DNA from: Zobellia amurskyensis
Lineage (GTDB): Bacteria > Bacteroidota > Bacteroidia > Flavobacteriales > Flavobacteriaceae
Reading direction: 5' to 3'
DNA: 43,274 nucleotides
NCBI RefSeq assembly: GCF_009725985.1
Contig: NZ_RCNR01000041.1
Location: forward strand, 1 to 43,274
Shown here: positions 22,165 to 41,615 of the stretch, in pieces
How positions within the stretch are numbered: the stretch's first letter is position 1
Layout: each line of letters starts with the position of its first letter
Translations under genes and position numbers: made by a program
Notes under the pieces: model-generated
Told to the model about the DNA's origin: nothing
The model's input: only the letters and a program-made list of their open reading frames with translations
The model's database searches: none

Positions 22165-23304
22165 TTATCTATATGATACGGCAATCTTGGCAAGTTGGCC
22201 AACAATTTTAACCGAGTCTTTCATTGATAATTTGGAACCATCTGCATGAATCCATCGTTTTAAGGGTTGCTCACAAATAACGCGCTTAGCTTCTTCTTTA
22301 CCGTAATGTTTTCTCATACGCATGAAAATTTCCACATCAAAAAGCCATTTGGTAATGAACTTTTTGTTAAACATGGTAGAAGCTATTTCACGGTCCATTA
22401 TTTTGGCTCCACATTGAGTGTCCTTAAAGGGCATGCCCAAAATAGTCTGTATAATCATATTGATGGTCATACTTATCACTTTTCGAGCTGATTCCTTAGT
22501 AATGTTCGCTCCCATTCTACTGATTCTGGAACCACTCACAATTTTAAAATCGGAATTTTCAATAGTCTTTACCAAATCATCAAAATCCCTAAAGTCAGTT
22601 GAAAGATCGGCATCTAAATATCCGAGATAATCTAACTGTTCATCTTTTATCATGTGTAAGATTCCTTGTCTTACCGCTTCTGCCTTACCACCGTTCTTCT
22701 CACAATCATAAACACTTATGTTGGACTCATGTCCTTTTCGTAGTTCATGCAGTACTTCTAAAGTTTTGTCCGTACTTCCATCATTTACAAAACATAAATG
22801 GTAGCCTAAATTCTTGTGTGCAAACTCCTTGAATTCAGGACCGGACAAACGGTCTTCTTCATTATAGCAAGGAATTATTACACCCACGCAATTCTTTTGA
22901 AGCATACGTGCATTATCACTCGCTACCGTTTCTTTCTGAATATCAGGTGCTCCGATAATTCGTTTTATACGTGCCGCCATTTCGTCTAGGCTCACAGGCT
23001 TTTTCATGTAATCGTTAATTCCTAAATCAAAACCATCTACAATGATTTTTTCATCGGTATTACCTGACATGATCAGAATAGGTGTTTCGGATTTCTTTTC
23101 AACCCTTATATGTTCAACTACCCTAAGGCCTGACATGCCCGGCATATTTATATCTACCAAAACTAAATCTGGCTGAAAACTATCAAATACTTCTATGCCC
23201 TGCTCTCCAGAACTGGCCGTTTTAACCTCATAGCCTAATTCTAATAGTCTCTTTTCAACTGAAAGCAAAATCAATTGCTGGTCGTCTATGGTTAATATTT
23301 TCAT
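22165..23304 (-). CDS. Response-regulator receiver fused to a GT2 (ALG5/DPM1-like) glycosyltransferase
   Basis: 379 residues, two domains. Residues 1-~118 are a CheY-like receiver: acidic pair D7-D8, phospho-acceptor D51 (LVLVDINMPGMSG), S80 and K102. Residues ~138-379 are a GT2 glycosyltransferase: VIIPCYNEED (142-151), VNDGSTD (173-179), NGGKAEAVRQG, the divalent-metal motif DADLS (231-235) and DTQCGAK (295-301). The last matches the dolichyl-phosphate glucosyl/mannosyltransferase group, which loads a sugar onto a lipid phosphate. No membrane segments. A receiver whose output is a glycosyltransferase is rare; phosphorylation could switch sugar-lipid supply. The sugar and lipid are unknown. 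Confidence 0.9.
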   Translation of the reverse strand: MKILTIDDQQLILLSVEKRLLELGYEVKTASSGEQGIEVFDSFQPDLVLVDINMPGMSGLRVVEHIRVEKKSETPILIMSGNTDEKIIVDGFDLGINDYMKKPVSLDEMAARIKRIIGAPDIQKETVASDNARMLQKNCVGVIIPCYNEEDRLSGPEFKEFAHKNLGYHLCFVNDGSTDKTLEVLHELRKGHESNISVYDCEKNGGKAEAVRQGILHMIKDEQLDYLGYLDADLSTDFRDFDDLVKTIENSDFKIVSGSRISRMGANITKESARKVISMTINMIIQTILGMPFKDTQCGAKIMDREIASTMFNKKFITKWLFDVEIFMRMRKHYGKEEAKRVICEQPLKRWIHADGSKLSMKDSVKIVGQLAKIAVSYR

Positions 23305-23340: not shown

Positions 23341-24579
23341 TTATGCTTTTACTTTTTCGTGGGTTAGTCCAATGGCGTTAACGTCTATAATCTGCCCTTT
23401 GGATTTTTGAACCTGAATAGCCTTAAAATAATCCAGATACATTTGGGTAATGGTACTCATAGGCAATGAACATGCAGCCGCATAATTGGTTTGGGCCAAC
23501 TCCGTTCTATAGGCATCATCCGTGAGTATTTTTTCTATGGCGTCCGCTAATGAATTTTTGTCCTCGGGTAAAAAGAACTCGCCCCTATAACCTTCTTCCT
23601 TAACTAACACGCTCAAGTCTCCCAAATCAGGAAGAGCAACTGCTTTTCCGTAGCTTCCGGCTTGGTGCAATACACCCGAACTACCTGTAGTAGAGGTATA
23701 CGGGAAGACCACTACCGCACTTTCTCCAAAAATAACGGGGACGTCCTCTTCGGCTACATAGCCTGTAAATCGTATTTGCGATACATGGCTGTATATTTCT
23801 TCCATCTTCTTAAGGTAGCCTGGTGTATTAGGACTATCCGTTCCGGCAATTACAATTTCTATATCTTCATTGCTCCTATTACGAATTACCTCTATTGCCT
23901 CAATAAGTACCTCAACCTTTTTATAGGTCCCGAACTTCCCGAAAGCCATTACCTGTTTTGGTCCAGCTGGAAGATTAAAATCCGGTTCTGGTGGAGTTTC
24001 AAAAGAACCGTGAGGAATTAATGCTATATTTTTTGCTTTATATTTCTTCTCAAGTATGGTTACGTATTTGCTGATGGTCACGGCCAAAATATCCGATGCA
24101 AGAACAAACTTGGTCAAGGTCGTACCTATAAAACCATATATGCTTTGTAGTATTTTGCTTTTGGTAAAACCGGCACTATCCAAATCTACCTGCTCTAAAA
24201 TATTATGTAATAATGATATGGTAGGAATTCCTTTAAACTTGGTTGCATAAGGTAACATCAACCCTAAAGCCGCGGGTATTTTTTTATCACCAAATTTCAG
24301 GAACTGTAAATTATAAAGTACGGCGTCCGGTTTGTGGGTTTTAATAGCTTTGTTTACTGTAAGTAAATTAGAATAGCTATTGAACTCCCAGCATTCCGAA
24401 ACGGTTATCTTACAACCTTCGCCTTCAAAAGAAAAATCCTTTGGTGCTGTTGTCTTATCTGTCATCAAAATAATTTCGGTGACTTCTTCTTGTAATCTAA
24501 AATGCTTTACAAGATAATATCCGTACTCCGTTAAGGTTACTTTACTGGGAGGATAGGCGGTTACAATGGCTAGTTTCAT
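23341..24579 (-). CDS. Glycosyltransferase family 4
   Basis: 412 residues, GT-B fold. The N-terminal half starts KLAIVTAYPPSKVTLTEYGYYL. The C-terminal half has GT4 features: FGKFGTYKKVEVLIEAIEVI (donor-side helix), a VIAGTDSPN segment, RFTGYVAEEDVPVIFGESAVVVFPYTSTTGSSGVLHQAGSYGKA (acceptor/donor loop with the ExxxG/SxxxxxxE-type region, here G-V-L-H-Q-A). It probably transfers a nucleotide-sugar-derived residue to a growing glycan on the cytoplasmic face. It lies 36 bases upstream of the REC-GT2 start and 59 downstream of the flippase, on the same strand, so one operon. Confidence 0.9.
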   Translation of the reverse strand: MKLAIVTAYPPSKVTLTEYGYYLVKHFRLQEEVTEIILMTDKTTAPKDFSFEGEGCKITVSECWEFNSYSNLLTVNKAIKTHKPDAVLYNLQFLKFGDKKIPAALGLMLPYATKFKGIPTISLLHNILEQVDLDSAGFTKSKILQSIYGFIGTTLTKFVLASDILAVTISKYVTILEKKYKAKNIALIPHGSFETPPEPDFNLPAGPKQVMAFGKFGTYKKVEVLIEAIEVIRNRSNEDIEIVIAGTDSPNTPGYLKKMEEIYSHVSQIRFTGYVAEEDVPVIFGESAVVVFPYTSTTGSSGVLHQAGSYGKAVALPDLGDLSVLVKEEGYRGEFFLPEDKNSLADAIEKILTDDAYRTELAQTNYAAACSLPMSTITQMYLDYFKAIQVQKSKGQIIDVNAIGLTHEKVKA

Positions 24580-24638
24580 ACTGTAGGTTTAATATTTTGG
24601 AACTATTTAGTAAGCAATTTATTTTTTGGTTTTGTTCT

Positions 24639-25895
24639 TTAACTTTCGATAAGATTCTTCTTTCGCAATTCCTTATTAGAAAAATATACCAACTGAACGA
24701 CAAGCAATATAGACATGGCTATGAGCTGCATATGCACCACACTTTTTAAAGTATCATGATACAATACCACCAATAAAATTTGGGAAAGTCCCAATACACC
24801 GGATAAAATAACCGGTATATAATGGTCTAACGACAAAAAGTAATACGCGAAAATATTGGATATGGCGAACAATGAAGTAGCCAATGCATATTGCCACAGC
24901 AAACTGGACATTGCTATATAGGAATCGCCAAACATTAGCGTTATAATCAATTCAGGAAATAAGTAACATACTGTTACAATACCAGCGGAAAGCAACCCAA
25001 TATAAGATACATATTTAAATAAGATCGGCGCTGTTGGCTCTCTGTCTTTTTGTTTCTGCACTACTACCGGAAGTAAGAGCATCACAAACATCCAGGCAAC
25101 AAAATATACTACCCTTCCTATTAAAGCTAATGAGGCATAAAGTCCAGCTTCCATAGGTTCAAAGTAATGCTTTACCAAAAGTACATCGCTGTTGTTAATT
25201 ATAATCTGTGTAAACTCATAACAGGCGGTTAACCAAATAAACTGTGAGACTCGTTTTGCATTCTCTGGAATTAATTTTCTAGATTCCTTAAAGGATATGG
25301 ATATACTGTCCGATGGAAAAAGTCCAAAAAGAAAAGATAAAAAGATTCCCAAAGCCACTAGCGTTCCGGGTTCTATATCTAATAGGAATAGTAAAAGCAT
25401 GGTCAATAACAACCGGCTCCACATTTCAGTCTGGTAAGTAATGGACAGTTTTCCAAATTCCTGCCTGCCTTGGTATGCTCCTCTATTTACACTCATAAAA
25501 AAGTAGACAGGTATACCCAGACCAAATATGATAAACATCCAATGACTTTCTGTGTTGAAAAGCGATTGCAGTTGATGGGAAAAAATAAGAATAAGTACGC
25601 CTATAATAAGACCTGCAATACTAGCCTGACGGTAACTTATATTTTTAAAAATATCCCATTCCTTACCGGAAAAAATAACTGCAAACTTTGCCGTTGCCAG
25701 TTGAAAGGTCATTCCCATAAAAGATAGAACCAATAATAGGGTAACTAAAAGTGCTGCTTCCGAAAATGCTGCGGGACCTAACAACCTACCTAATAAAAGA
25801 TTATAAAGGTAGTTTCCACCATTTACCAAAAGCACGCTTCCCATGAACAACTGCTCCTGAGAAACTTTCTTAAACATTAACTTAATGGCAGTCAT
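24639..25895 (-). CDS. Lipid-linked glycan flippase (Wzx/MATE-like, oligosaccharide flippase family)
   Basis: 418 residues and about 12 hydrophobic segments, beginning FMGSVLLVNGGNYLYNLLLGRLLGPAAFSEAALL, the usual start of polysaccharide biosynthesis flippases. The charged loop GAYQGRQEFGKLSI and the YFLSLDHYIPVILSGVLGLSQILLVVLY tail fit the family. It should move a lipid-linked glycan, or a glycan chain, across the inner membrane. The ATG at 25895 is used; an internal ATG seven residues in (MFKKVSQ) is an alternative. The role resembles PelG or Wzx, but the sequence is not obviously PelG. Confidence 0.88.
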   Translation of the reverse strand: MTAIKLMFKKVSQEQLFMGSVLLVNGGNYLYNLLLGRLLGPAAFSEAALLVTLLLVLSFMGMTFQLATAKFAVIFSGKEWDIFKNISYRQASIAGLIIGVLILIFSHQLQSLFNTESHWMFIIFGLGIPVYFFMSVNRGAYQGRQEFGKLSITYQTEMWSRLLLTMLLLFLLDIEPGTLVALGIFLSFLFGLFPSDSISISFKESRKLIPENAKRVSQFIWLTACYEFTQIIINNSDVLLVKHYFEPMEAGLYASLALIGRVVYFVAWMFVMLLLPVVVQKQKDREPTAPILFKYVSYIGLLSAGIVTVCYLFPELIITLMFGDSYIAMSSLLWQYALATSLFAISNIFAYYFLSLDHYIPVILSGVLGLSQILLVVLYHDTLKSVVHMQLIAMSILLVVQLVYFSNKELRKKNLIES

Positions 25896-26447: not shown

Positions 26448-29400
26448 ATGCAACGTACCAATGTTTTATTAATCTTAGCACTGGTCATAGGTATCGCTTT
26501 TCATGGGTCTAGTATCTTCTTCACCCTAGAGACTACCTATGATGCTTTGATTCATCTATTTTTTGCGGACCATTACGCCAATAGTTGGTTTGAGCCTTGG
26601 GATTATAGATGGTATACGGGTTTTACGGTGCAAGCCTATCCTCCCCTTGTGCATCAATCCATAGGTATTCTATCCCATATTGGCGGACTCAAATTTGGAA
26701 TGTTCAGCGTAGCCATGATAGGTATTGTACTATTCATAACAGGCGCTTATAGGTTTGGTCTTTTGATGACCGGAGACAGAAAAATAGCTGGATACACAGC
26801 TATACTTGCGGTGTTTTCTTCCACCTTTGTAGAAACCCTTCACATATTTGGTCAATTGCCCAGTATTATAGGCCTATCCGTACTTTTGCATTCCCTACCT
26901 GAAATATATCTCTGGGTAAAAACCGGAAAAATCAGATATATAGTCACCAGTCTTTCGCTGATTGCCGTAACGGTAACCTCTCACCATGTGACCCCTATTT
27001 TTGGAATGATATTCTTTATTTTTCCACTACTAGGTATGGCGGTTATGGATTCGGCCAGAGATCAGGTCAATAGTTTTAAGGAAGTACGTTTTGGCGTCTT
27101 TTTTAAGCAATTTAAAAAGTGTTTCTGGCGTATTGTCATTTTTGGATTCTCCTCATTATTTCTCATTGTTACTTGCATCCTACCCTATTGGATCAATTCA
27201 AAGAAAAACCCAATTACTCAAGTACCCATTCCCCATGGTTCTAGAGATAACTTTCTTGAGGTAACCTCATCCGGACTTGTATTTTTTGTGATTCCATGGG
27301 GGATTCTCACTTTTGTTTTACCATTTCTATTTTACCGTTTCTACAGCAGACGGTACATCTTTTTTGGGTTATCATTCTCTATGTTAACCCTTTTGGGAAC
27401 TGGTGGCACTACGCCTCTACCCCTAATATTATTGGGCGAAACTGCTTTTAATATATTAACGTTAGACCGCTTTACACTTTGGGCCACCATTATGGCACTG
27501 CCTCTATTTGGTGAGTTCGCTTATCGTATGGTAGAGGGTGACCTTAAAGACCGTATTCAAGAAAATTGGGGCCGTGTGTACCACCGTATTCTTGGTGGTG
27601 TAATTGTAGGTGGTATTTTGTTCATGGTTATTTTCACAATGAGTCTAGGGTATTTTAGACCCTCTCAACCGCAGAAAATTAAGATGCAGCCCATCATTAA
27701 CTTTCTCAGTCAAGATTCTCACGATCATTGGCGCTATTTACCATTGGGCTTTGGAGATCAAATGGCATGGTTATCCGCTCAGACGAAAGCTATGACCGTA
27801 GACGGCAATTATCACTCCGCGCGCCGTTTACCCGAGTTGACCACAAGAGCCATAGAGCGACTTGAAAATTCAAAATTTAGGGGTGTAGAAGGTATTGGTT
27901 CTTTACAGCAGTTTTTGACCGTACCCGAAAAATATAACCTGAAATACATTTTTTCCAACGATAAGTTCTATGACCCCATTCTCTATTTCTGTGGATGGCA
28001 AAGGTTGCAACAATTAGAAAACGGAATAATGGTCTGGGAAAAATTGAACGTCCCGCCTTTTCCAACCATAATGCCCAAAGAAGATGTGCACGTGGCGTTA
28101 AAGGTCATGTGGGGCATCATACCCATATTAACCGTTCTCATTGCATTTATAATAAACATTCAATGGATATGGATCAGAGCATTGAAAGCAAAAAAACTCC
28201 CCCAAGGGGAGTTTATGAAGTATGCTATTGAGCACAAAAACTTTCCAAAAAAATTAGTGGTCATCAATCATATTTGGGCTTTTATAATTCTAATCGTTCT
28301 TGGCTACGGTATTTATCTGTTCTACATCAAAAACGTGGATCAGATTGCACCTACCAACGTGGTCCAAGCCTATTATGATGCTATCGATTTCAAAGAGTTC
28401 AATAAGGCACATTCGTTTTTAAATCCCGATAGCGGTAAAACCATTGCTCAATATATGTTAGAGGTTTCCGTAACGGATGGTATTCTTAGTTCTTATGCCA
28501 AATTAGATTCCCTTGGAATTGAATTTTTACAAGAGAATGATACCAGTGCCAGAGTAAAAGCAGCTACTAGATGGATCACGCCTTTGGAAAGTATCAATAA
28601 AGATTTTTACCACAGCCTTATCAAAAAGAAAGGCAAATGGTATATAGAACCATCAATGATAGATAATGATTTACCGCCCGATCAACTCTTTACCTCTAAC
28701 AATACAACTTTCTTTAATCATGGTAGACGAAAGATTACCACCCAACAAACACATCATGAAGATGTTCTGAAACAACCAGTTCTAGAGGTACTGAAAGCTA
28801 AATTGGTCCAATATAACGGGAGTTATAGTATTATTGGTGAACTGCAAAACGTAGATCACGTTCCTGCAGATGTAGTTATAAAGGGTACACTTTATAATGA
28901 CTTAAATAAAGAATTGGCAACCTATAACGCCAAAGATGTTGCCAAGCATAAACTGATGCCAAAAGAGACTACTACGTTTAGAATAGATTTTGAAGGTATA
29001 GCCTGGTCATCTACAAAAGATACTTTGCCCCCAACTTTTGACCCTGATCAGTTTACTCCTATGACGTTTGAGGAGCAACCTACTAAATTCAACTTACAGT
29101 GTGCAGGTAACGTTGCCAATACTGATTTATATAAACAAGTGAGTCTTCAGGAACTAGTTTTTGAGGACGATAAAATAAGTGGTTCCCTTTTTAATTCAGG
29201 TATACAGGAAGTAACCATACCACAGCTATTAATTTCTTATTATGATGAAAGTAAAAATCTTCTGTGGGTAGAACATGAGTTTTTAACCGATGGTGTTCGC
29301 ATTCAGAGAAAACGATATTTTGAGTATGAACCGGCGTGCTTAACGGATATAAAGATTATAAATAGTAGCCTTAAAAACTGTTTCGTAAACGGAAGCCCTA

Positions 29401-29534
29401 ACTCAGAAATTAGTGACAAGCTATTTCCTAACAGGGATAAATCACATGCCGAAGACCAGCTGCAGCCGTACTCCGGTAATGGTTTTGATTATTTAAAATT
29501 TGAGTTGAACAGTTATATTGGCAATCCTAAATGA
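26448..29534 (+). CDS. Large GT-C-like membrane glycosyltransferase with periplasmic NTF2-like domains
   Basis: 1028 residues. The N-terminal ~400 residues have about ten membrane segments. The first external loop (TTYDALIHLFFADHYANSWFEPWDYRWYTGF) is of the type seen in GT-C enzymes and the 6-pyruvoyl-tetrahydropterin-synthase-related membrane family, with acidic residues that could be catalytic. Two more segments at ~545-570 and ~605-625 precede a soluble tail: an NTF2-like domain (~635-750; NVVQAYYDAIDFKEF..., KKKGKWYIEPSMID), then an FxLYD-like segment (~775-860; SYSIIGELQNVDHVPADVVIKGTL). GT-C enzymes use lipid-phosphate sugars as donors, the product expected of the REC-GT2 enzyme. A stop-overlap (ATGA) couples it to the next gene. 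Confidence 0.75.
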   Translation: MQRTNVLLILALVIGIAFHGSSIFFTLETTYDALIHLFFADHYANSWFEPWDYRWYTGFTVQAYPPLVHQSIGILSHIGGLKFGMFSVAMIGIVLFITGAYRFGLLMTGDRKIAGYTAILAVFSSTFVETLHIFGQLPSIIGLSVLLHSLPEIYLWVKTGKIRYIVTSLSLIAVTVTSHHVTPIFGMIFFIFPLLGMAVMDSARDQVNSFKEVRFGVFFKQFKKCFWRIVIFGFSSLFLIVTCILPYWINSKKNPITQVPIPHGSRDNFLEVTSSGLVFFVIPWGILTFVLPFLFYRFYSRRYIFFGLSFSMLTLLGTGGTTPLPLILLGETAFNILTLDRFTLWATIMALPLFGEFAYRMVEGDLKDRIQENWGRVYHRILGGVIVGGILFMVIFTMSLGYFRPSQPQKIKMQPIINFLSQDSHDHWRYLPLGFGDQMAWLSAQTKAMTVDGNYHSARRLPELTTRAIERLENSKFRGVEGIGSLQQFLTVPEKYNLKYIFSNDKFYDPILYFCGWQRLQQLENGIMVWEKLNVPPFPTIMPKEDVHVALKVMWGIIPILTVLIAFIINIQWIWIRALKAKKLPQGEFMKYAIEHKNFPKKLVVINHIWAFIILIVLGYGIYLFYIKNVDQIAPTNVVQAYYDAIDFKEFNKAHSFLNPDSGKTIAQYMLEVSVTDGILSSYAKLDSLGIEFLQENDTSARVKAATRWITPLESINKDFYHSLIKKKGKWYIEPSMIDNDLPPDQLFTSNNTTFFNHGRRKITTQQTHHEDVLKQPVLEVLKAKLVQYNGSYSIIGELQNVDHVPADVVIKGTLYNDLNKELATYNAKDVAKHKLMPKETTTFRIDFEGIAWSSTKDTLPPTFDPDQFTPMTFEEQPTKFNLQCAGNVANTDLYKQVSLQELVFEDDKISGSLFNSGIQEVTIPQLLISYYDESKNLLWVEHEFLTDGVRIQRKRYFEYEPACLTDIKIINSSLKNCFVNGSPNSEISDKLFPNRDKSHAEDQLQPYSGNGFDYLKFELNSYIGNPK

Positions 29535-30760
29535 AAATGCACATACTACATATCTGCATTATGCTATCCTTGCTTTTCTCTGGCTGTTCTAAGAAAACCG
29601 AAGTCAAGAAAGCATCTAACGTCAATTTTGAATTGCTCACATCAGAAGAAAATTTTACCGCCGGAGAACCTTTCTCTCTAAAATTTAGCGCTTCAGAGAA
29701 ATCTAGTCCTGTCTTAGTATTTAGAAATGCGGTAGGTACAACAATACTTGAAACTTCTTATAGCGATGGAGCTGTTCAATTTGATGTACCTAAGAATTTT
29801 TATGAAAAATCTGGTATTTGTTATTGGTCTTTAGTTTCGGATGCTGAAGAGAAAATGAAGGGCACACTAAACATCCATGTAAATAACAAAAATGGCACTT
29901 TTTTAGAATCTTATTTAGGTCCTAGAAGTCTTACCGCCGGCCCTGAAGATTATGCCATGTTCGTAATGCTAGCAACCGATTTTTATGATAATCCATTAAA
30001 CGATAGCACTTCTATAACAAGTAAAGTTCAGTTTCAGAAAAATCAATCAGAAGAAATACTACGTTCTAAAAACCTAATTGCCTGGACGCGGGTAAGAGCA
30101 CCAGAAAAATCTGGCCGCATGCTAATTTCCGCGGCATGTAATGAAACGGACTCCAAAGAATTTACAACGATCATATATCCTGCTAATCCAATAGACTTTA
30201 CTATTTCTTATGATCGAAATCACGAATATGCAGATGGTAACCAAGTTATAAAGTTCAAAACAGATATTATCAGAGACACCTATGGTAATATAGCAAGCGA
30301 GGGTACTTTAGTATATTTTATAATAACAGATAACCAAGGCGCAAGACTTAAAGCACAGGGCACTACGTTAAACGGTAAGGCAGAAGCCCGCCTTTTACAC
30401 CCTGAACACCAAGCCTCGTGGTCTGTTGAAGCTTTTGTTACGGGTGCAGCAAGAAGTAAGCCTATTAAAGTTGCTTTTATAGCTTCCGTAACCGATTATG
30501 AGGTAACTTTCCTAGACGATAATAGAACTGTTTCTGTAGGCCCTTTAAAAAGTTTTATGAACCAATTAGTTCCTGACGGCATGCCTATTTCATTATCGGT
30601 AAAAGATGTAAATGGAGACGTGTTAGATGTACTAAGAACTTCATCTATGCAGGGTGAAGGTAAATTTGAATTATCTCCGGATTTCTTTCCGACCGGTAGC
30701 TACGAGTTAAAGATTAAGACCGCAGGGATAACGAAAACAAAATCAGTAGAACTAAAATGA
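29531..30760 (+). CDS. Lipoprotein with Ig-like domains, in the glycan operon
   Basis: 409 residues. Signal peptide ends at the lipobox FSGC (LSLLFSGC), so it is a lipoprotein, probably periplasmic. The rest reads as consecutive beta-sandwich domains (FELLTSEENFTAGEPFSLKFSA; FTISYDRNHEYADGNQVIKFKTDIIRDTYGN; a C-terminal GKFELSPDFFPTGSYELKI), resembling invasin or macroglobulin-like Ig folds. No enzyme motif. It starts inside the stop of the GT-C gene (ATGA) and overlaps the hydrolase start the same way, so all three are translationally coupled. I infer an accessory or scaffold role in glycan export. Confidence 0.72.
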   Translation: MKMHILHICIMLSLLFSGCSKKTEVKKASNVNFELLTSEENFTAGEPFSLKFSASEKSSPVLVFRNAVGTTILETSYSDGAVQFDVPKNFYEKSGICYWSLVSDAEEKMKGTLNIHVNNKNGTFLESYLGPRSLTAGPEDYAMFVMLATDFYDNPLNDSTSITSKVQFQKNQSEEILRSKNLIAWTRVRAPEKSGRMLISAACNETDSKEFTTIIYPANPIDFTISYDRNHEYADGNQVIKFKTDIIRDTYGNIASEGTLVYFIITDNQGARLKAQGTTLNGKAEARLLHPEHQASWSVEAFVTGAARSKPIKVAFIASVTDYEVTFLDDNRTVSVGPLKSFMNQLVPDGMPISLSVKDVNGDVLDVLRTSSMQGEGKFELSPDFFPTGSYELKIKTAGITKTKSVELK

Positions 30761-32283: not shown

Positions 32284-32359
32284 AATATTACGATAATTCC
32301 ATTGTATTAACCAATGATCCTTCTGTACGGAATAAAAAAAACGTGTAAGAAAATTAGGC

Positions 32360-32656: not shown

Positions 32657-32876
32657 ATCTTAAAATTTATCAGGTTAAGTATCACTTACATTACAATGCG
32701 AAATAGCGAGCAGACCTTAAGAAGTCAAAAGCATTGTTAATGGACATTAAATAACTGTAAATGAGCATATTTTATTGCATTTATCCTTAAAAAAGGTTGT
32801 TTAAATATTTATCCGATAAAATACCAATAAATCGGTTTAATGGGCGTTATACCCTTGTGGTAAAAACCTTACTTTA

Positions 32877-34937
32877 ATGTTAAAACTAAATACACTCTGC
32901 TTATTCCTGTTCTTTTCACTTTACGGAATGGCACAAAGTCCGCTTCAGCCGGGATTTACCTTGTTGGAAAATGGGGATTTTGAACAAGCGGAGACCTTTT
33001 TTGAAGGTTATCTTGTTGATGACCCAACAAATAAAACTGCCTTATTATGTTATGGGCGTGCTGTAGGCCTAAGCGGTGAACCCGAAAAATCCACAGGAAT
33101 GTTCGCAGATCTTTTAGACGATTATCCAGGTGATTTTGAAATACAGATAAACTACAACGAATCTTTCCTTTGGGGTAAAAAGTTTGAAGAAGCAGAACCT
33201 TTATATGCTAAACTCGTAAAAGAATATCCCAAAAATTTTGGAGCTGTTTTAGGGTACGCCAATACTTTAAGTAATTTAAAGAAGTATGAAAAAGCCCTAG
33301 AATGGGTAGAAAAATCTTTGGTAATACAACCTGATAACCTCAGTGCCAAAACTTCTAGAAAATACATGAGACTAGGCTATGCCAACGCCTATGTAAACAA
33401 ACAAAACTATAAAAAGGGAGAAAGCCTATTAAAAGAAATATTTATAGATTTTCCTGAAGACAGAGATGCGCTATTAAATCTTGCAAACCTGTATCTAATT
33501 ACAAAAAACACCAAAAGTGCGAAATCAACTTATCGTCGTTTAGCTACTTCTCAAAAAGATTCCATCACTGCGCTTAACGGCATTGCCCTTGCCGAACATA
33601 TTGGGGAGAATGACAAACAAGCTTTAGCCGTGGCCATGACCGCAAAAGAAAAAGTGGATGTTCTTGATGATGAAACCTTAAAGGAACAGACGTATGACCG
33701 TTACGTACAAGCTTTAATATGGAACCGAAAGTATATTAAAGCCAAAACCGAAATAGCATTACTAGAAGCCAAATACACAAATCGTAATTGGATATATGCA
33801 CTAAAGGCCATGCTTGGCCTCTATACAGGTTCTCCTAAGAAGAGTGTCGCTAATTATAACGCCATTCTAAAAAATGACAGCACATCCTTTGACGGAAACT
33901 TAGGGAAAGCCAACGCGCTTTTTGCCGCAGACCGAATAGTTCCTGCCTACAAGGCCGCGTTTGGAACCCTCAAAGTCTTTAAGGACCAAAAAGATGCACT
34001 TGGATTTATTGATAAGCTTAATATATCCTTTACACCAACACTAGAAGAACATCTTGCCTATACTTTTGACAATGGTAAAAACGTTGCTTTTTCAACCAAT
34101 ACAACTGCCACTGTTCCTTTATCTACAAAGTTAAGTACCAACCTATCCTATAACTTTAGGACTACTGAAAATACTATTACGGAGAACAAAGCAAGTTCGC
34201 ATGTGCTTTCTGCAGGTTTAGATTATAAAATTCTTCCTAAGACAACATTTAAAGCCGTTCTAGGATTAAATAAATCCAGCTTCGACTCAGAGTCCTATAC
34301 TCAACCGGTTATAGATGTAAAACTGTTACTACAACCTTTTAAACTTCAAAATCTTGAATTGGGTTACAAACGGGAAATTCAAAGTTTTAATGCGGACCTT
34401 ATTGAACGGGAAATTATCATGAACCATTTTGGACTGAATTATAATCTAGGAACCAATTTTAATCTAGGTTGGTATACTCAAGCCATACACACCACCCAGA
34501 GTGATAATAACACCCGAAATCTTTTATTTACCTCATTATATTACAACGTAATGCGAAAACCAGCCCTAAAAGTGGGGCTTAACTATCAATACTTGTCTTT
34601 TGCGGAACAGATACCTACTATTTATTTTAGTCCGGAAAAATACCAAGCTGTAGAAATATTTGCAGATCTGAGAGGCGATATTTCAAAAAATACGCAGTAT
34701 ATGATGAGTGCCGCTACTGGTTTACAACAAGTAGAAGAAGACCCTAATACCGTAATATTTAGAGCCGAGGCAGGTGTAACCCATAAATTCTCAAAGCGCT
34801 TTAGCGGTAACCTCTATGGAAAATACAGCAATATTGCCTCTGCTACGGCTGCTGGATTTGAGTTTACGGAAATTGGGTTGAAGTTAAAATGGCTGATGAG
34901 CAAAAAGCCCTTGTTCTATAAGCAAATCGCTAAATAA
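32877..34937 (+). CDS. Outer-membrane TPR/beta-barrel protein (exopolysaccharide secretin-like, PelB/BcsC/PgaA-like)
   Basis: 686 residues. A signal peptide (to GMAQ) is followed by TPR-like helical repeats (~20-385; e.g. ALLCYGRAVGLSGEPEKSTG, FGAVLGYANTLSNLKKYEKALEWVEKSLVIQPD, ALLNLANLYLITKNTKSAKSTYRRL). From ~390 on the sequence alternates polar and hydrophobic residues with aromatics (LSTNLSYNFRTTEN... LELGYKREIQSF... NFNLGWYTQAIHTT), a beta-barrel, ending with LKLKWLMSKKPLFYKQIAK. TPR-plus-barrel is the layout of PelB, BcsC, PgaA and AlgK/E exporters, so I propose a channel for the glycan of this locus. Transport is inferred; no c-di-GMP domain is present. Confidence 0.82.
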   Translation: MLKLNTLCLFLFFSLYGMAQSPLQPGFTLLENGDFEQAETFFEGYLVDDPTNKTALLCYGRAVGLSGEPEKSTGMFADLLDDYPGDFEIQINYNESFLWGKKFEEAEPLYAKLVKEYPKNFGAVLGYANTLSNLKKYEKALEWVEKSLVIQPDNLSAKTSRKYMRLGYANAYVNKQNYKKGESLLKEIFIDFPEDRDALLNLANLYLITKNTKSAKSTYRRLATSQKDSITALNGIALAEHIGENDKQALAVAMTAKEKVDVLDDETLKEQTYDRYVQALIWNRKYIKAKTEIALLEAKYTNRNWIYALKAMLGLYTGSPKKSVANYNAILKNDSTSFDGNLGKANALFAADRIVPAYKAAFGTLKVFKDQKDALGFIDKLNISFTPTLEEHLAYTFDNGKNVAFSTNTTATVPLSTKLSTNLSYNFRTTENTITENKASSHVLSAGLDYKILPKTTFKAVLGLNKSSFDSESYTQPVIDVKLLLQPFKLQNLELGYKREIQSFNADLIEREIIMNHFGLNYNLGTNFNLGWYTQAIHTTQSDNNTRNLLFTSLYYNVMRKPALKVGLNYQYLSFAEQIPTIYFSPEKYQAVEIFADLRGDISKNTQYMMSAATGLQQVEEDPNTVIFRAEAGVTHKFSKRFSGNLYGKYSNIASATAAGFEFTEIGLKLKWLMSKKPLFYKQIAK

Positions 34938-35373: not shown

Positions 35374-36090
35374 TTAAACTAAGTTTAATCGTCTCATGAG
35401 TTCGGGTCGATTTGATCGACTAATGGGAATAACCATTTTTCTGATAAGTACGCTATTATCCTCAATATCAATTATCTTAGAGAAATTAATAATGTACGAC
35501 CTATGTATTTGAAGAAATATTTTATCCGGTAACTTATCTTTTATTTTCTTGAGTGTAGTATGTACGTGATATTCTTTGTTTTCTGTTGTAATATCAATAT
35601 AATCACCTTGTGCCTTAACTACGAGTATTTCATTAAAGTGTAATTTTATCAACCTTTTATCTATGTTGATGTACAACTCTTGTAAGGCATCCGAACCAGA
35701 GCCGGATTGTTGATTAGAAACAGGGGTTCCCTTTTTATCCAACGCGCTTTTTACTTTCTGTATTGACTTCTTAAACCGCTCAGCCGTTAAAGGCTTAACC
35801 ATATAATCTACAATAGCTTCATATTCATAAGCTGCGATCGCAAATTCAGTATCCGAAGTGGTCAAAACCACTTTTGGACAATTTTTTAAGGTTTGGACAA
35901 AATCTACTCCGCTAAAACCTGGCATATGTATGTCCAAAAACACGACATCTACGTCTTGTTGATTTAATAACTTAATAGCATCTATAGCATTATCAAATTC
36001 CGCAACAACCTTTAAGTCTGACACCATAGAACAGTGTTTTGCTACTATGGCGCGTGCCGTTGCTTCGTCATCTATGATAATACAGGTCAT
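35374..36090 (-). CDS. LytTR-family response regulator
   Basis: 238 residues. Receiver 1-~120: acidic pair D7-D8 (IIIDDEATARA), phospho-acceptor D53 (VVFLDIHMPGFSG), T in VVLTTSDTEF and K in YMVKPLTAERFK. LytTR DNA-binding domain ~130-238: LYINIDKRLIKLHFNEILVVKAQGDYIDITTENKEYHVHTTLKKI... FLQIHRSYIINFSKI. Such regulators bind DNA with tandem imperfect repeats. Last gene of the H-NOX/FIST operon, 4 bases after the HPt stop, so it is probably the transcriptional output of this relay. No target box was identified. Confidence 0.94.
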   Translation of the reverse strand: MTCIIIDDEATARAIVAKHCSMVSDLKVVAEFDNAIDAIKLLNQQDVDVVFLDIHMPGFSGVDFVQTLKNCPKVVLTTSDTEFAIAAYEYEAIVDYMVKPLTAERFKKSIQKVKSALDKKGTPVSNQQSGSGSDALQELYINIDKRLIKLHFNEILVVKAQGDYIDITTENKEYHVHTTLKKIKDKLPDKIFLQIHRSYIINFSKIIDIEDNSVLIRKMVIPISRSNRPELMRRLNLV

Positions 36091-36416: not shown

Positions 36417-37475
36417 TTATTTTTTAATCGTAAACGAGAAATTGGCTCCCTTATTTTCTTTTGATTCCAGTTCTATAGAACCGTTGTATAATTTGACTAT
36501 TTTTTTAACCAATGCCAGGCCTACACCTGCGGCACCACTATTGTTCTCTAACTTTTTAAACATTTCAAAAATTGAGATTTGGTGTTTGGTCGGAATTCCT
36601 TTTCCGTTGTCTATTACCGAGAATTTCCAAAATTGGTTATCTTCTTCAAAACCTATAGTGATTATGCCTTTTTTCAAATGTTTTGTAGCGGTAATTGCAT
36701 TTGTTATCAAATAGGCAAAAATCTGCTCTATCAAATGTTTTTCAATATGTATTACAGGAAAACCAGACCCATAAGTCATTGTAACATTTTCAGGCAAGGG
36801 CACGTAACTTTCTATTTCTTTTAAAAGGATATTGACATCAACATTCATCTTGGACTCCATATTGATGCCTATTGTGGCATGTTCCAGAATTCCATTGATC
36901 AAATTATCCATTTTAACCAAATTCCCTGAAGCTAAATCAATGTTTTCCCTACTTTCTTCCGTAAGGCTATTTTCATTATCGTCCTGAATCCAACTTAACA
37001 AGGCATTTACGTTACGAATTGGTGACTTTAAATCGTGCGACACCATTTGCACATAATTATTAAGAGATTCGTTTCTGGCTTCCAAATCTTCTAAAAGAAG
37101 CTTTTTCTCTATGGAAATTTCCGTAACCTCTTTGGCCAAATGACTAATATGCTTAGCCAATTTTTCTACATCAAATGCTTTTTTCCCGTTACTTTTAAAA
37201 TCTTCATCTGTATTTAAATTGGAGTTTAAACTATTCATTGTCAGTTCTAACGAAGCCAAAATTTTCTTCTGTCTTTCTGCCTCTTTAGTCAGCTCTCTAT
37301 TTGCCTCAAACAATTCTTCTGAGCTAATAGCGGTAGCCCTTTGTATCATGCTCAGCTTTTCATCATAATTCTCGTATGACCTTTCCACGGCAGCAAAGAA
37401 CTCCTGCATCTCTTGGTTTTCACTAAGATGTGCGGGTAAATTTTTCTTCAGCTGTCGTTTTAATAAAGAGTGCAT
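36417..37475 (-). CDS. Soluble histidine kinase without a recognised sensor domain
   Basis: 352 residues, no membrane segment. The N-terminal ~140 residues are charged, coiled-coil-like helices and no PAS or GAF is visible. HisKA H147 (QMVSHDLKSPIRNVNALL) is followed by a HATPase_c: N-box LITNAITATKHL, G1 VIDNGKGIP, G2 GAAGVGLALVKKI. Its start codon is entangled with the FIST stop (TAATG), so coupled translation and a direct partner in the FIST protein are likely. This is the arrangement of a cytoplasmic kinase controlled by a separate sensor, as with NosP/NahK or H-NOX/HnoK. Confidence 0.9.
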   Translation of the reverse strand: MHSLLKRQLKKNLPAHLSENQEMQEFFAAVERSYENYDEKLSMIQRATAISSEELFEANRELTKEAERQKKILASLELTMNSLNSNLNTDEDFKSNGKKAFDVEKLAKHISHLAKEVTEISIEKKLLLEDLEARNESLNNYVQMVSHDLKSPIRNVNALLSWIQDDNENSLTEESRENIDLASGNLVKMDNLINGILEHATIGINMESKMNVDVNILLKEIESYVPLPENVTMTYGSGFPVIHIEKHLIEQIFAYLITNAITATKHLKKGIITIGFEEDNQFWKFSVIDNGKGIPTKHQISIFEMFKKLENNSGAAGVGLALVKKIVKLYNGSIELESKENKGANFSFTIKK

Positions 37476-38608
37476 TATTCGCTAAATAAGGTTAATGTCA
37501 TGGTTTGGTTATGCAATTTACATGCATCTTGGCCTGCAAATGGGGCCATTTCTCCATAAGAATAAAATCCAGTAACCGCTGCATTAGTACCTATGACCGA
37601 TATAACTTCTTCTACTTCTTCTTCCGTTCTTTGATCCATTACCAGTTTTCTACCCACACAACTTATTAAAATTGCCAATTCCGGTTCGTTAGTTCTATCC
37701 TTCATAGCATATTGTGCAGCAATACTTGCGCCACCTGCTATATCATCTACCGTAGACATCATTAACTGTACACGAGCCCCTTCCGGTACATCTCCTGCCA
37801 AGGTCATTGTTCCTACCTTCTCGTCTATGGTAAGAATGGTACGAACTAAAGGTTCTTCATTTTCGTTGATGCGCACATTAAGCGGATACAGCAAGGCCGA
37901 TGTTGGTAGTTCTTTTGCCTTATCCCCTAAATATTTTTTATATAAATCCAAAGCTGGTTGCCTATCCAGTTCATGAAGTACGTTTTTCTTAGATTTGGTG
38001 ATAATCCTTTCTGGACCAAATGGTGTCCAACCACCATAATTAGCACTTGTTATTTCTAGTGATTCACCATAAAAACCAATAGCTATGATTTCACCTTCTT
38101 TGGCACTCTTATTATATGAGGCAAGGGTGCGTTCAAAACGGTCATCATCGCCGCATAGCCCACCTGAAAGACTAATATTATTTATCCTAACTTCGCCAAA
38201 CCCTTCTATTAGTGCACTGCCGTTAACTGAACTTCCTTCCGAAACTAAAAATATATGCTTTAATCCTTCTTTGGAGAACTCCCTAAAAAGAGTTTCCCCC
38301 AACAGTTGGTCATCATTAATTTCAGATATATTTTTTCTTTTTACTACAAAACTACATTTCTCAAATTCAATGGCTGTTAAAGATACTACACCTTCAAGCA
38401 CGGAATCACCTATAATTTCACCCGCGGTACTGCCAAAAACAATATGTCCATCTGGAAAAAGTTGATTCACTTCAGCATAGAGATTATCGTCTTCAAGCGC
38501 ATATCTATTTCCAAAAACCAAAACAAGAGGTTCTTTTAAATTATGGCTTTCTTTGGATAAAATCTTAAATGGTTGTTTAGCCTCCTTTACAGCTTGCATT
38601 ATTTTCAT
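37475..38608 (-). CDS. FIST-domain protein (NosP-type haem/NO sensor candidate)
   Basis: 377 residues, FIST N and C domains. N part: LVLVFGNRYALEDDNLYAEV, HIVFGSTAGEIIGDS, then NNISLSGGLCGDDDRFERTL. C part: ALDLYKKYLGDKAKELPTSALLYPL, ILISCVGRKLVMDQRTEEEVEEV, ending GFYSYGEMAP, the FIST_C signature. FIST proteins are cytosolic sensory proteins; one family, NosP, binds haem and nitric oxide and controls an associated kinase. The haem-ligand residue cannot be assigned here. It lies between two histidine kinases, 2 bases after the PAS kinase stop. Confidence 0.9.
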   Translation of the reverse strand: MKIMQAVKEAKQPFKILSKESHNLKEPLVLVFGNRYALEDDNLYAEVNQLFPDGHIVFGSTAGEIIGDSVLEGVVSLTAIEFEKCSFVVKRKNISEINDDQLLGETLFREFSKEGLKHIFLVSEGSSVNGSALIEGFGEVRINNISLSGGLCGDDDRFERTLASYNKSAKEGEIIAIGFYGESLEITSANYGGWTPFGPERIITKSKKNVLHELDRQPALDLYKKYLGDKAKELPTSALLYPLNVRINENEEPLVRTILTIDEKVGTMTLAGDVPEGARVQLMMSTVDDIAGGASIAAQYAMKDRTNEPELAILISCVGRKLVMDQRTEEEVEEVISVIGTNAAVTGFYSYGEMAPFAGQDACKLHNQTMTLTLFSE

Positions 38609-38610
38609 GT

Positions 38611-40602
38611 TTAGCTATTAAGGTTGTTGATTTCTTTTTTAATGGTAAAGTGGAATTCCGTTCCCATATCTTTTTCACTCTCTACCCAAACTTCGCCTTC
38701 ATAGCGATCAATTATCTTTTTAACAATGGAAAGCCCAATACCCGTGGATCTTTCATTTGCACCAATGGACTGAAAGATTTCGAATATTTTTTTGTGATAT
38801 TCCTTTGGTATACCTACACCATTATCCTTGATTGAAAATTGCCAATGTGTTGTGTTTTCAATAAATAGCACCTCTACCAACCCTATCTCCTTTTCGATAT
38901 GCACAACGGCATTTGACAGTATATTTTGAAATAATTGATGCATTTTTGTGCGATCCGCTACAATTGTAGGCAAGACTTCGGGTACGACCAAGGCTACATG
39001 ATCTGGAATAAATATGCTTTCTTTAATCTTCTCTACAACCTCGTTTAAATCAACACTAGAATTATCTAACGTAGAATCGTTAGCCGTTGAATATTCTAAT
39101 ATACCGTGAATCAATTTATCCATTGACGCCACTTTCTCTTGCATCAATTCTAAGTTCTGTTGACCTGTCTCATCAAGAACGTCTTTATAATCATCTTGGA
39201 TCCAAGTAGCCAAAGCACTTATACTTCGTAAAGGTGACTTCAAATCGTGGGATACAATGTGTGCATATTCTTGAAGCCCTTGATTGCTTTGTTCCAATTC
39301 TTTCACTAATTGTTCCTTTTGATGCTCAAGTAACTTTTGCTTGGTAACATCTAAATGTATGCCTACTGATCCAATTAAGTTTTTATTATTATCGTACCGA
39401 GGGGCGCCACTTACCAACCAGTGTTTCTTTTCTCCACTTTTATCAATAACCTCTAATTCGTATGAATCCGACTCACCTCGCATTCGTTTTTCATCTTCAT
39501 TTTCTAAAACACTCCTATTCTGTACTTGGAGTATATCCGTTCCTTTTTTACCTAAAAGTTCTTCTTCCTTAAAGCCACTCATGTTACAAAAACTCTGGTT
39601 CACGAGTCGTATAATGTCTTCCGTATCTACCTCTACCAGGCCAAGATTCATATTAGCTATAATATTTGCATACTTTTTACGCTCATAATTTAATCTTTCT
39701 TCAGCTTCACGCTCCCTTGTAATATCCTCTATCATGGCTAAAAGGTATTTTAATTTGCCATCACCTCCCCTAACCGCACTTACGGATGTTTTGGCTATAA
39801 GACAACCGCCACCTTTTTTAAAATATCTTTTTATAACAACTGCCTTGTCCTTCTTTCCTTTTTTCATTTGAACGATAATATCGTCAGAAGGAGAGCCTTC
39901 TTCAACCTTTGAAAAATCGTTTAAAGCCATTGTTTTAAGTTCGCCTTCTGAATAACCTAGAAGTTCTGTAAAAGTATTGTTAGCTTTTATGATCTTACCC
40001 CCCACGCTTAAGACAATACCTAATGGAGAATTTTCTACAATGATATCTAACTGCCGGCGTTGATGCGCCAGTAACTCCTTAATCTCCATTTCTTGGGTGA
40101 TGTCCCTAATAATACCTTGAGCCCCCATGGGTTCTTGCTTTGTATTATAAATGAGGCTACTGTTTATTTCTATCCATTTCTCATCTCCGCTCTTAACGTT
40201 TATTTTAGCCCTATAATTTTTGAGCGTACCTACCTCTAAAAGATACTTAAACGATTCTGCGGTGTATTGAAGGTAGTCTGCATGCACGAGACCTGTTAAG
40301 TTAACGTCCTCTTTTGTATTATCATACCCTAAGAACTCTTTAGCCGAAGTATTCATTTTGATTACATTGGCCTGTAAATCCATCACCACATAAGGATCAA
40401 TAATATTTACAAAGACTCCATCTAATTCTGAAACTTTTTCGGTAAGTAAGTTCTCTAATGTACCATTGGCCTCTTTTAGTCGTTGGGCTGTTTCATAGAG
40501 CTCCGTAGATTTTTGCTCTAGAATTTTTTCAGCTTGTTGACGTGCTTTTTTCTGACGCTCTAAGGCCTTTTTGAGAAGTTCAATCTCTTTATCGCTATCC
40601 AT
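38611..40602 (-). CDS. Multi-PAS sensor histidine kinase (H-NOX partner)
   Basis: 663 residues from ATG at 40602 (MDSDKEIELL), which overlaps the H-NOX stop as ATGGATAG; the frame is open to 40635, but that would overlap further. Domains: an N-terminal coiled coil (~1-60), three PAS domains (~60-172, ~180-300, ~312-425; e.g. VIKMNTSAKEFLGY, IIKANNTFTELLGYSEGEL, IIRLVNQSFCNMSGF), HisKA with H452 (HIVSHDLKSPLRSISALA), and HATPase_c (NILSNAVVHIEKEI, IKDNGVGIP, GIGLSIVKKI). No membrane segments, so soluble. Overlap with the H-NOX gene indicates direct control of this kinase by H-NOX. Confidence 0.94.
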   Translation of the reverse strand: MDSDKEIELLKKALERQKKARQQAEKILEQKSTELYETAQRLKEANGTLENLLTEKVSELDGVFVNIIDPYVVMDLQANVIKMNTSAKEFLGYDNTKEDVNLTGLVHADYLQYTAESFKYLLEVGTLKNYRAKINVKSGDEKWIEINSSLIYNTKQEPMGAQGIIRDITQEMEIKELLAHQRRQLDIIVENSPLGIVLSVGGKIIKANNTFTELLGYSEGELKTMALNDFSKVEEGSPSDDIIVQMKKGKKDKAVVIKRYFKKGGGCLIAKTSVSAVRGGDGKLKYLLAMIEDITREREAEERLNYERKKYANIIANMNLGLVEVDTEDIIRLVNQSFCNMSGFKEEELLGKKGTDILQVQNRSVLENEDEKRMRGESDSYELEVIDKSGEKKHWLVSGAPRYDNNKNLIGSVGIHLDVTKQKLLEHQKEQLVKELEQSNQGLQEYAHIVSHDLKSPLRSISALATWIQDDYKDVLDETGQQNLELMQEKVASMDKLIHGILEYSTANDSTLDNSSVDLNEVVEKIKESIFIPDHVALVVPEVLPTIVADRTKMHQLFQNILSNAVVHIEKEIGLVEVLFIENTTHWQFSIKDNGVGIPKEYHKKIFEIFQSIGANERSTGIGLSIVKKIIDRYEGEVWVESEKDMGTEFHFTIKKEINNLNS

Positions 40603-41137
40603 TTTGAACAATATCAAATTTAACCTCGGTGCCATCTTCTTTTAAAAGATCGTACGTAATTGTAGCAGTACCTCCAAAATGTTCAAAAGCTTTTTCTATA
40701 AGACCGTGAGCTAAACGGTACAACCCTCTAGAAGAAGAGTATACCATAGATATTGAGGTATCTGTCTTATCTAAAACTTTAAATGAAGGCAGTTCTGCAT
40801 CTGGATACAGCTTCTTGACGTGGACATGTATATGATCCTCTATACAATACAGAAGACCTAAGGGTGTATTGTAGTTTTTTATAACCTCCGGATGCGAATT
40901 GGCTAGACCCGCAAAGAGGTAGAGACCAAAAGCATAAATGAGGTCGCCAACCGGAATATTAGTTTCTTCACTCAGGTTGGTGATGAGTGTAACCATTTCA
41001 TTAAAGTCATACGTTCCCACAGATGTATAAATACCCTCTGATGGCAATTGACCATTTTCTATAATATTATCTAGAGTCTCAAGACCGAACTTAGACTCTA
41101 CCATTTCCAAAAACTCGGTAAATACAATGCCCTTCAT
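40595..41137 (-). CDS. H-NOX haem protein (nitric oxide/oxygen sensor)
   Basis: 180 residues, single-domain bacterial H-NOX. Begins KGIVFTEFLEMVESKFGLE; SEGIYTSVGTYD is a family hallmark. The proximal haem ligand is H104 (DHIHVHVKKLYPDAELPSF, seven residues before Y111-P112), and the propionate-binding Y-x-S-x-R is present as Y133-S-S-S-R137. Such proteins bind NO (and sometimes O2) through haem and inhibit a partner kinase. First gene of the signalling operon; the spacer of 76 bases from the CheY-like gene may hold its promoter, though no TAnnTTTG was seen. Confidence 0.96.
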   Translation of the reverse strand: MKGIVFTEFLEMVESKFGLETLDNIIENGQLPSEGIYTSVGTYDFNEMVTLITNLSEETNIPVGDLIYAFGLYLFAGLANSHPEVIKNYNTPLGLLYCIEDHIHVHVKKLYPDAELPSFKVLDKTDTSISMVYSSSRGLYRLAHGLIEKAFEHFGGTATITYDLLKEDGTEVKFDIVQNG

Positions 41138-41213: not shown

Positions 41214-41615
41214 TTAGCCTTTGACTAATTGGTTGATATCCCAGTACTCAAGAACTTTATGGAGTTTTGATTGATACTCTTCATATTTTAGAGGCTTTAT
41301 AACATAACCTGCTACTCCAATTTTATAGCATTCTAACAAATCCGCTCTATTTTCAGATGTTGTAAGAATGACTGTAGGAAGATATTTTAAAACATCGTCG
41401 GCCTTAAGAATACTTAAAAACTCAATGCCGTTCATTCTGGGCATATTAAGATCTAGTAAAATAATATCCGGCAATTTATTACCCGATTTCAATACTTCTA
41501 AAGCATCTTCACCATTCTTGGTTTCAATGATATTATGCTTCAGTTCCAATTTCTTTACCGTACGCTGTAATTTCATTACCTCAATAGCATCGTCCTCAAT
41601 CAATAAAATATCCAT
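41214..41615 (-). CDS. Single-domain CheY-like response regulator
   Basis: 133 residues, receiver only: acidic pair D8-D9 (LLIEDDAIEV), phospho-acceptor D55 (IILLDLNMPRMNG), T85-T86 and K107 (GYVIKPLKYEEY). Subfamily resembles the Rcp1-like regulators next to phytochrome-type kinases. No output domain, so it could pass phosphate to the HPt or act by protein binding. Same strand, 76 bases upstream of the H-NOX gene, so probably part of the same unit. Confidence 0.93.
   Translation of the reverse strand: MDILLIEDDAIEVMKLQRTVKKLELKHNIIETKNGEDALEVLKSGNKLPDIILLDLNMPRMNGIEFLSILKADDVLKYLPTVILTTSENRADLLECYKIGVAGYVIKPLKYEEYQSKLHKVLEYWDINQLVKG

Follow-up and report, generated by a model that had tools for sequence, protein, structure and literature searches.

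Genes of the locus

The window, meaning the whole stretch of 43,274 nt that was analyzed from Zobellia amurskyensis (contig NZ_RCNR01000041.1), contains a gene for a response-regulator receiver joined to a GT2-type glycosyltransferase (REC-GT2), along with a polysaccharide-type locus and a group of phosphorelay genes (Table 1). The genes for a GT4 glycosyltransferase and a flippase are on the same strand as REC-GT2, and those for a large membrane protein (PTPSmem), a possible lipoprotein, a GH5-like protein and a TPR porin are on the opposite strand. The last ORF (41833-43272) runs past the window end and holds the sequence SGGMDS, which we take to resemble that of asparagine-synthetase-type enzymes.

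Table 1. Features of the window, with strand and supporting evidence
Feature	Position	Strand	Evidence
REC-GT2 fusion, 379 aa	22165..23304	-	ORF, ATG start, Pfam
Receiver domain of REC-GT2, aa 1-117	22954..23304	-	Pfam Response_reg; structure model match
D51 codon of REC-GT2	23152-23154
GT2 domain of REC-GT2, aa 139-379	22168..22890	-	Pfam Glycos_transf_2; ArnC/GtrB/DPMS matches
GT4 glycosyltransferase	23341..24579	-	Glyco_trans_1_4, 68.4 bits
MOP-type flippase	24639..25895	-	Polysacc_synt_3, 36.3 bits
PTPSmem, 1028-aa membrane protein with C-terminal beta domains, possible GT-C enzyme	26448..29534	+	Weak PTPS_related
Possible lipoprotein (N-terminus by eye)	29531..30760	+	ORF; weak Invasin_D3, below cut-off
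GH5/GH2-like protein, one hydrophobic helix	30757..32283	+	Cellulase, 62.7 bits; hydropathy
STAS-domain protein, 98 aa	32360..32656	-	STAS, 27.7 bits (cut-off 22.6)
TPR protein, possible outer-membrane barrel	32877..34937	+	TPR_19, 76.7 bits; BCSC_C, 20.3 bits, below cut-off
LytTR response regulator	35374..36090	-	LytTR, 69.8 bits; Response_reg, 65.9 bits
Hpt phosphotransfer protein, 105 aa	36095..36412	-	Hpt, 25.2 bits (cut-off 24.6)
Histidine kinase HK1	36417..37475	-	HisKA/HATPase_c
FIST protein, NosP-like	37475..38608	-	FIST, 141.3 bits
PAS histidine kinase HK2, without its own receiver	38611..40635	-
H-NOX (HNOB), haem nitric-oxide-binding protein	40595..41137	-	HNOB, 130 bits
Single-domain receiver, possible donor to Hpt	41214..41615	-	Response_reg, 77.1 bits

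PTPSmem scored 18.7 bits against the Pfam family PTPS_related, below the cut-off of 26.4. At E ≤ 1, hits to this family came from 26 of the 45 PTPSmem sequences examined, and a search of PDB sequences with PTPSmem gave no match. A Foldseek search with its model (pLDDT 64) returned PorU first and a transglutaminase next, with chains of the OST complex, presumably of the catalytic subunit, at ranks 5 and 6 (E 2e-3). With a sub-threshold Pfam match, a low-confidence model and unrelated proteins ahead of the OST chains, PTPSmem is a possible GT-C enzyme.

The neighborhood is conserved. A neighbor was counted as present where BLAST gave a best match to the corresponding protein of the window, partial and weak matches included. 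Among 40 fetched 20-kb REC-GT2 loci, the GT4, flippase and TPR porin genes were found in 36 each, and those for PTPSmem, the lipoprotein and GH5 in 32 each. The relay genes followed (LytTR 27 loci, Hpt 25, HK2 22, H-NOX 13, HK1 and the single receiver 10 each, FIST 8), those at the far end often falling beyond the 20-kb fetch limit. Among the best 78 named loci listed, where each flank extended to at most 10 kb, PTPSmem was present in 72, GH5 and the lipoprotein in 69 each, GT4 in 67, the flippase in 64 and the TPR porin in 55; of the relay genes, Hpt was seen in 13 loci, LytTR in 10 and H-NOX in 2. The STAS protein accompanies the polysaccharide-type locus in many genomes, at times in two copies. 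Some loci encode proteins of 831-957 aa close to the genes for the TPR porin and LytTR (L066:1461-4046, L059:15470-17962, L047:15928-18798). Of four such proteins scanned, three combine DUF6923 or DUF4114 with a type IX secretion tail; the tailed proteins are perhaps secreted matrix proteins. No type IX-tailed gene lies between the TPR porin and LytTR genes of the window.

Domains and predicted structure of REC-GT2

Both domains of REC-GT2 score far above the Pfam cut-offs, well beyond chance (Response_reg on aa 3-114, 94.8 bits against 30.2; Glycos_transf_2 on aa 142-309, 75.7 bits against 23.3), which confirms the fusion reported in the preliminary description. The residues and motifs listed there were all found in place: the receiver carries the acidic pair (D7, D8), the phospho-Asp (D51), the Ser/Thr position (S80) and the Lys (K102), and the GT half carries DADLS at 231-235 and DTQCGAK at 295-301. 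Hydropathy gave no membrane helix in the GT half.

A structure model built from a 47-sequence alignment had a mean pLDDT of 81.5 and a pTM of 0.70, with the receiver and the GT both folded and pLDDT below 50 at residues 124-132 (the linker), 263-271 and 352-357. In fold searches the receiver resembled an activated YycF homologue (2a9o; TMt 0.94, rmsd 1.0); across the searches, the best receiver matches were mostly of the OmpR/PhoB type. The GT half was closest to ArnC (9asc; E 5.3e-12, TMt 0.56), with 24% identity across 249 columns, followed by GpgS (5jt0, E 4.4e-10) and DPMS. ArnC also led the PDB sequence matches, which included GtrB (sll0501), TagF and DPMS. A GT-A fold with a DxD motif is indicated by Pfam, by the match to GT2 structures and by an intact DxD in 130 of 134 REC-GT2 sequences.

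No NCBIfam equivalog cut-off was reached by the GT2 domain. Its top-scoring model was PgaC (49.8 bits, below the cut-off of that model), with the curated models for ArnC at 48.6 bits (cut-off 529) and PpgS at 33.8 bits (cut-off 370), and the Pfam family PF13641 scored 20.7 bits, below its cut-off of 27. The earlier placement in the dolichyl-phosphate-sugar synthase group can be retained as a nearest-relative assignment (ArnC closest, DPMS by fold and sequence, GtrB by sequence), but not as a subfamily assignment, for which the cut-offs were not reached. Judged from its sequence, with a complete receiver and a complete GT2, REC-GT2 is probably a response regulator with a peripheral glycosyltransferase as its output.

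Distribution and conservation

A search of 199 Flavobacteriaceae genomes from 198 genera (E ≤ 1e-30, up to nine candidates scored per genome) found full-length or near full-length REC-GT2 in 46, with identities of at least 41%. A phylum-wide search of 395 genomes at E ≤ 1e-70 gave 12 with a match, 11 of them Flavobacteriaceae and one from another family of the class. Among the best 80 relatives listed are proteins from Zobellia, Maribacter, Arenibacter, Winogradskyella and Kordia, the closest from a named genome being that of Zobellia russellii (99%). Since two-domain, full-length relatives occur in the 46 genomes and in named genera, the fusion is not an assembly artefact. It is common in Flavobacteriaceae, whose members are mostly marine bacteria. 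The look for other REC-GT2 proteins and their neighbors that the preliminary description recommended thus uncovered both a sizeable set of relatives and a conserved polysaccharide-type locus. Its view that a glycosyltransferase output is rare needs modifying, given this frequency and the receiver-glycosyltransferase fusions described for Methanobacteriaceae (PMC5847659, in excerpt). No receiver-GT2 fusion in Bacteroidota was recognized in the open-access literature searched.

Conservation was assessed on 134 distinct REC-GT2 sequences (not 134 genomes), a few of them incomplete; two other response regulators that had been picked by length (L120 at 17402 and L154 at 19404) were left out of this count. 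D51, K102 and P103 are kept in every sequence, D7 and S80 in 133 each and D8 in 130, so that all five receiver residues (D7, D8, D51, S80, K102) occur together in 129. Positions D98 (132/134), E108 (133/134) and R112 (132/134), which we take to be residues of an alpha4-beta5-alpha5 dimer face as in OmpR/PhoB, are similarly conserved. Over 809 pairs, median dN/dS was 0.146 in the receiver and 0.114 in the GT; over 1004 pairs, it was 0.160 in the adjoining GT4. The linker is of variable sequence, and in 134 of the 136 rows its length is 18-24 residues. By the conservation of its residues, the receiver is maintained like a working one. Random loss of receiver residues alongside a conserved GT, a pattern raised in the preliminary description, is ruled out by the near-invariance of the key residues; the reverse was seen in three genomes, as described below.

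Across the 199 genomes, REC-GT2 occurs with PTPSmem in 43 and alone in 3, and PTPSmem occurs alone in 11 (Fisher 1.3e-29, a value that ignores shared ancestry). An Hpt match is present in 45 of the 46 REC-GT2 genomes. At least one REC-GT2 copy with an intact DxD was found in all 43 genomes with PTPSmem (39 in the main alignment and four checked in addition), against none of the three without it (Fisher p 6.6e-5, again ignoring ancestry). In those three (G077, G113 and G117) the DxD is damaged and the five receiver residues are intact; G077 has a single DxD Asp changed and two receiver-less GT2 genes adjoining REC-GT2, and several GT motifs are gone in G113 and G117. Loci L075, L077 and L078 hold REC-GT2 copies of this kind, with a damaged DxD, an intact receiver and no PTPSmem match in the genome. 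In G075, which has PTPSmem, a second REC-GT2 copy has lost DxD, S80 and D8, and the main copy is intact. Because the DxD is intact in the presence of PTPSmem and damaged in its absence, the pattern supports a common pathway for the GT and PTPSmem.

Receiver-less and truncated relatives

The 11 genomes with PTPSmem alone encode a receiver-less GT2 (255-282 aa, 45-51% identical) adjoining PTPSmem. All 11 have an Hpt match, and six of the loci have Hpt and LytTR within the fetched stretch (L169, L170, L172, L173, L176 and L178); a further 34 genomes have an Hpt match, some weak, without PTPSmem. Since Hpt and LytTR accompany receiver-less loci and Hpt occurs in PTPSmem-less genomes, the phosphorelay does not depend on the REC-GT2 fusion, which counts against an exclusive pairing of the two.

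In a GT2 tree of 86 rows, the 61 receiver-bearing GTs that were included (not all those available) fall on one side of a branch with SH-aLRT support of 96, and 20 receiver-less rows fall on the other side with a support of 31. The root is unsure, since outgroup branch lengths run from 3 to 10 changes per column and several rows of the family also sit on long branches. The topology fits a receiver having been fused to GT2 once.

A third form is a truncated GT2, represented by 40 rows of 96-222 aa (37 of them at 136-180; e.g., L063:16979-17461); at least two sequences were encountered twice and fill two rows each. It adjoins REC-GT2 in 35 cases, PTPSmem in four and neither in one. Every row scores better against the receiver-less GT2 than against REC-GT2, and the DADL motif is absent in 39. 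Median dN/dS was 0.49 over 119 pairs, with synonymous sites near saturation; in four of the six closest pairs by dS (two of which share a sequence) it was 0.11-0.22, and in several pairs 0.6-0.9. Retained function is only suggested by these values, and the truncated proteins may be dead remnants or retained partners. The simplest reading of the sequences is that the fused enzyme replaced a receiver-less GT2, which afterwards decayed.

Phosphorelay genes

Two histidine kinases had been described at 36417-40602 as possible phosphate donors to D51, and both are present, with the FIST gene between them. The Hpt, H-NOX and single-receiver genes, like the polysaccharide-type genes from 23341 to 34937, went unmentioned in the preliminary description. 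NosP was the sole NCBIfam match of the FIST protein at E ≤ 1e-5 (67.8 bits, below the cut-off of 450). The H-NOX gene of the window lies beside HK2, and the same adjacency, with H-NOX directly following HK2, was seen in 22 of the 24 loci, some of them receiver-less, in which the gene after HK2 can be seen; only L050 and L076 differ. The phospho-His of the H-K-x-x-x-K motif is kept in the Hpt relatives examined. A receiver is absent from the window HK2 and from five HK2 relatives, and also from a different PAS kinase at L092.

Since no receiver is built into HK2 or its five relatives, the single-domain receiver is the likely step from kinase to Hpt. For the same reason, and because Hpt adjoins these kinases, Hpt seems a likelier direct donor to REC-GT2 than HK1 or HK2, so the kinases named earlier would be part of the relay, with their direct transfer to REC-GT2 less likely. 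The best hint that an Hpt feeds the REC-GT2 receiver comes from four Aquimarina genomes, in which REC-GT2 is found apart from PTPSmem (on other contigs in three, and about 69 kb away on the same contig in G581) and is convergent with what appears to be a private Hpt, 37-41% identical to that of the window. All four genomes also encode another Hpt, which in three of them lies at a distance of 21-24 kb from PTPSmem, and the GT2 beside PTPSmem is receiver-less in three and truncated in one. These cases belong to one genus and may represent a single event; a fifth Aquimarina record (L150) has the usual arrangement, with REC-GT2 adjoining PTPSmem.

The window genome itself encodes a second Hpt (G000:C1:186663-186971, locus L191), 47% identical, and no gene matching the window kinases was found in the 20-kb stretch around it. 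In Algibacter, a standalone 123-aa receiver lies between REC-GT2 and PTPSmem (L053:4582-4950, L138, L141 and L143) and is 56% identical to the fused receiver; the Pfam check covered L053. No GGDEF match was found in the window genome, in a search for which the control was positive in 8 of 14 genomes, and because of this a c-di-GMP switch made by GGDEF is not expected there.

Proposed mechanism and alternatives

We propose that REC-GT2 is probably a phosphorylation-regulated glycosyltransferase of this polysaccharide pathway. The nitric oxide sensors (H-NOX with HK2 and the NosP-like protein with HK1) would set kinase activity, and phosphate would pass from both pairs to the single receiver and on to Hpt, which would then serve two targets, the LytTR regulator (transcription) and D51 of REC-GT2 (the enzyme). 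Phosphorylation of D51 is very likely in view of the conserved sequence of the receiver, and it is likely that GT output is altered by it; the local Hpt is the probable donor, and the chances that nitric oxide is the signal are about even. Phosphorylated receivers would pair via the alpha4-beta5-alpha5 face in the manner of OmpR/PhoB, and such pairs would gather the GT2 domains at the membrane and raise output; we lean slightly towards the phosphorylated form as the active state.

The sugar donor supplied by the GT2 half would most likely be a polyprenyl-phosphate sugar, with which the divergently encoded PTPSmem would build or decorate an exported polysaccharide; that a polyprenyl-phosphate sugar is the product made for PTPSmem is marginally favored. 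A different chemistry, in which the GT2 passes its sugar straight to a soluble acceptor or to a glycan under extension and makes no polyprenyl-phosphate sugar, appears rather unlikely. It would suit the position of GpgS close behind ArnC in the fold search, the presence of TagF among the PDB sequence matches and the sub-threshold PgaC score as best NCBIfam match, but ArnC tops both the sequence and fold searches, followed by GtrB and DPMS, and the divergent neighbor is a membrane protein that may belong to the GT-C type.

The role of the receiver can also be read in other ways. It could be a location or assembly module, phosphorylation docking the GT2 on the flippase, GT4 or PTPSmem with catalysis unchanged, and the missing membrane helix and the linker of variable sequence and near-constant length suit such docking, as does the CheY domain of PorXFj, which mediates interaction with GldL (PMC10951265, in excerpt). 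Receiver-less relatives nevertheless persist at the same place with no such module, and we consider this reading unlikely. Much less probable still is that the receiver serves the relay, with REC-GT2 acting as a phosphate sink or competitor for Hpt that tunes the LytTR branch. The copies of G077, G113 and G117, with damaged DxD yet five intact receiver residues, are what a sink would look like, those of G077 and G113 lying within the same 20-kb stretch as relay genes (L075, L078), and the standalone receivers that adjoin REC-GT2 in some loci point the same way; but every genome with PTPSmem keeps a copy with an intact DxD, which argues that the enzyme matters there.

Returning to the phosphorylation-regulated enzyme, nitric oxide would reduce phosphate flow as in HahK of Vibrio fischeri, on which the predicted polarity is modelled, and by this analogy a lowering of polysaccharide by nitric oxide is a tentative prediction, a little short of even. 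The complete chain, in which nitric oxide sensors act through the phosphorelay and Hpt to switch the GT directly without a second messenger, REC-GT2 has displaced a receiver-less GT2, and the truncated descendant may be a partner or inhibitor, is possible but somewhat doubtful as a whole. If it is true, two-component signaling would act on the glycan-building enzyme itself, beyond gene control or c-di-GMP, and bacteria such as this one could adjust surface polysaccharide quickly without GGDEF, perhaps when they meet nitric oxide. Because the locus occurs in nature both with and without the receiver, what the receiver does can be tested directly.

Comparison with known systems

ArnC and GtrB have C-terminal membrane helices. 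Together with DPMS they are the nearest solved structures to REC-GT2, which shares their GT2 fold and DxD but differs in its extra receiver, in having no membrane helix by hydropathy and in its low identity to ArnC (about 24%). In Pel-type loci, GT4, MOP flippase and TPR porin genes lie side by side, a layout similar to that of the window; a Pel system was considered and rejected, as no Pel-specific family was matched in the six neighbors scanned (Pfam and NCBIfam, E ≤ 0.001).

Receiver-glycosyltransferase fusions as a kind are already known from methanogens: in Methanobacteriaceae, a BcsA-like glycosyltransferase of family PF13641 carries either one or two fused receivers (MTH_548), and receivers on metabolic enzymes are known in bacteria generally (PMC5847659, in excerpt). 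REC-GT2 differs from the archaeal, BcsA-like type in its sub-threshold PF13641 score, in a GT nearer ArnC/DPMS and in its setting, a polysaccharide-type locus of Flavobacteriaceae near a phosphorelay. Within Bacteroidota, PorX (REC-PglZ) is likewise a response regulator with an enzyme output, although that output is a phosphodiesterase and is tied to type IX secretion (PMC10951265, in excerpt).

The relay resembles the H-NOX/NosP relays that control biofilm in Shewanella and Vibrio, in which H-NOX adjoins a kinase and the outputs, as given in the excerpted source, are c-di-GMP enzymes, quorum sensing or transcription (PMC8738867); here the receiver is on a glycosyltransferase and the genome has no GGDEF match. 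The polarity of such systems varies. In V. cholerae and Shewanella oneidensis, nitric oxide is reported to raise biofilm along with c-di-GMP, opposite to V. fischeri, where HahK promotes biofilm and H-NOX counteracts this in dependence on nitric oxide (PMC8738867, in excerpt). HahK is an H-NOX-adjacent kinase that acts on an exopolysaccharide locus, probably via the Hpt domain of SypF (same source), and the STAS protein SypA is described as a regulator of that locus, syp. With its H-NOX kinase, Hpt and STAS protein at a polysaccharide locus, syp is the closest circuit to that of the window, and the receiver-fused glycosyltransferase, of which none was seen in the available part of the syp account, is what sets the Zobellia locus apart.
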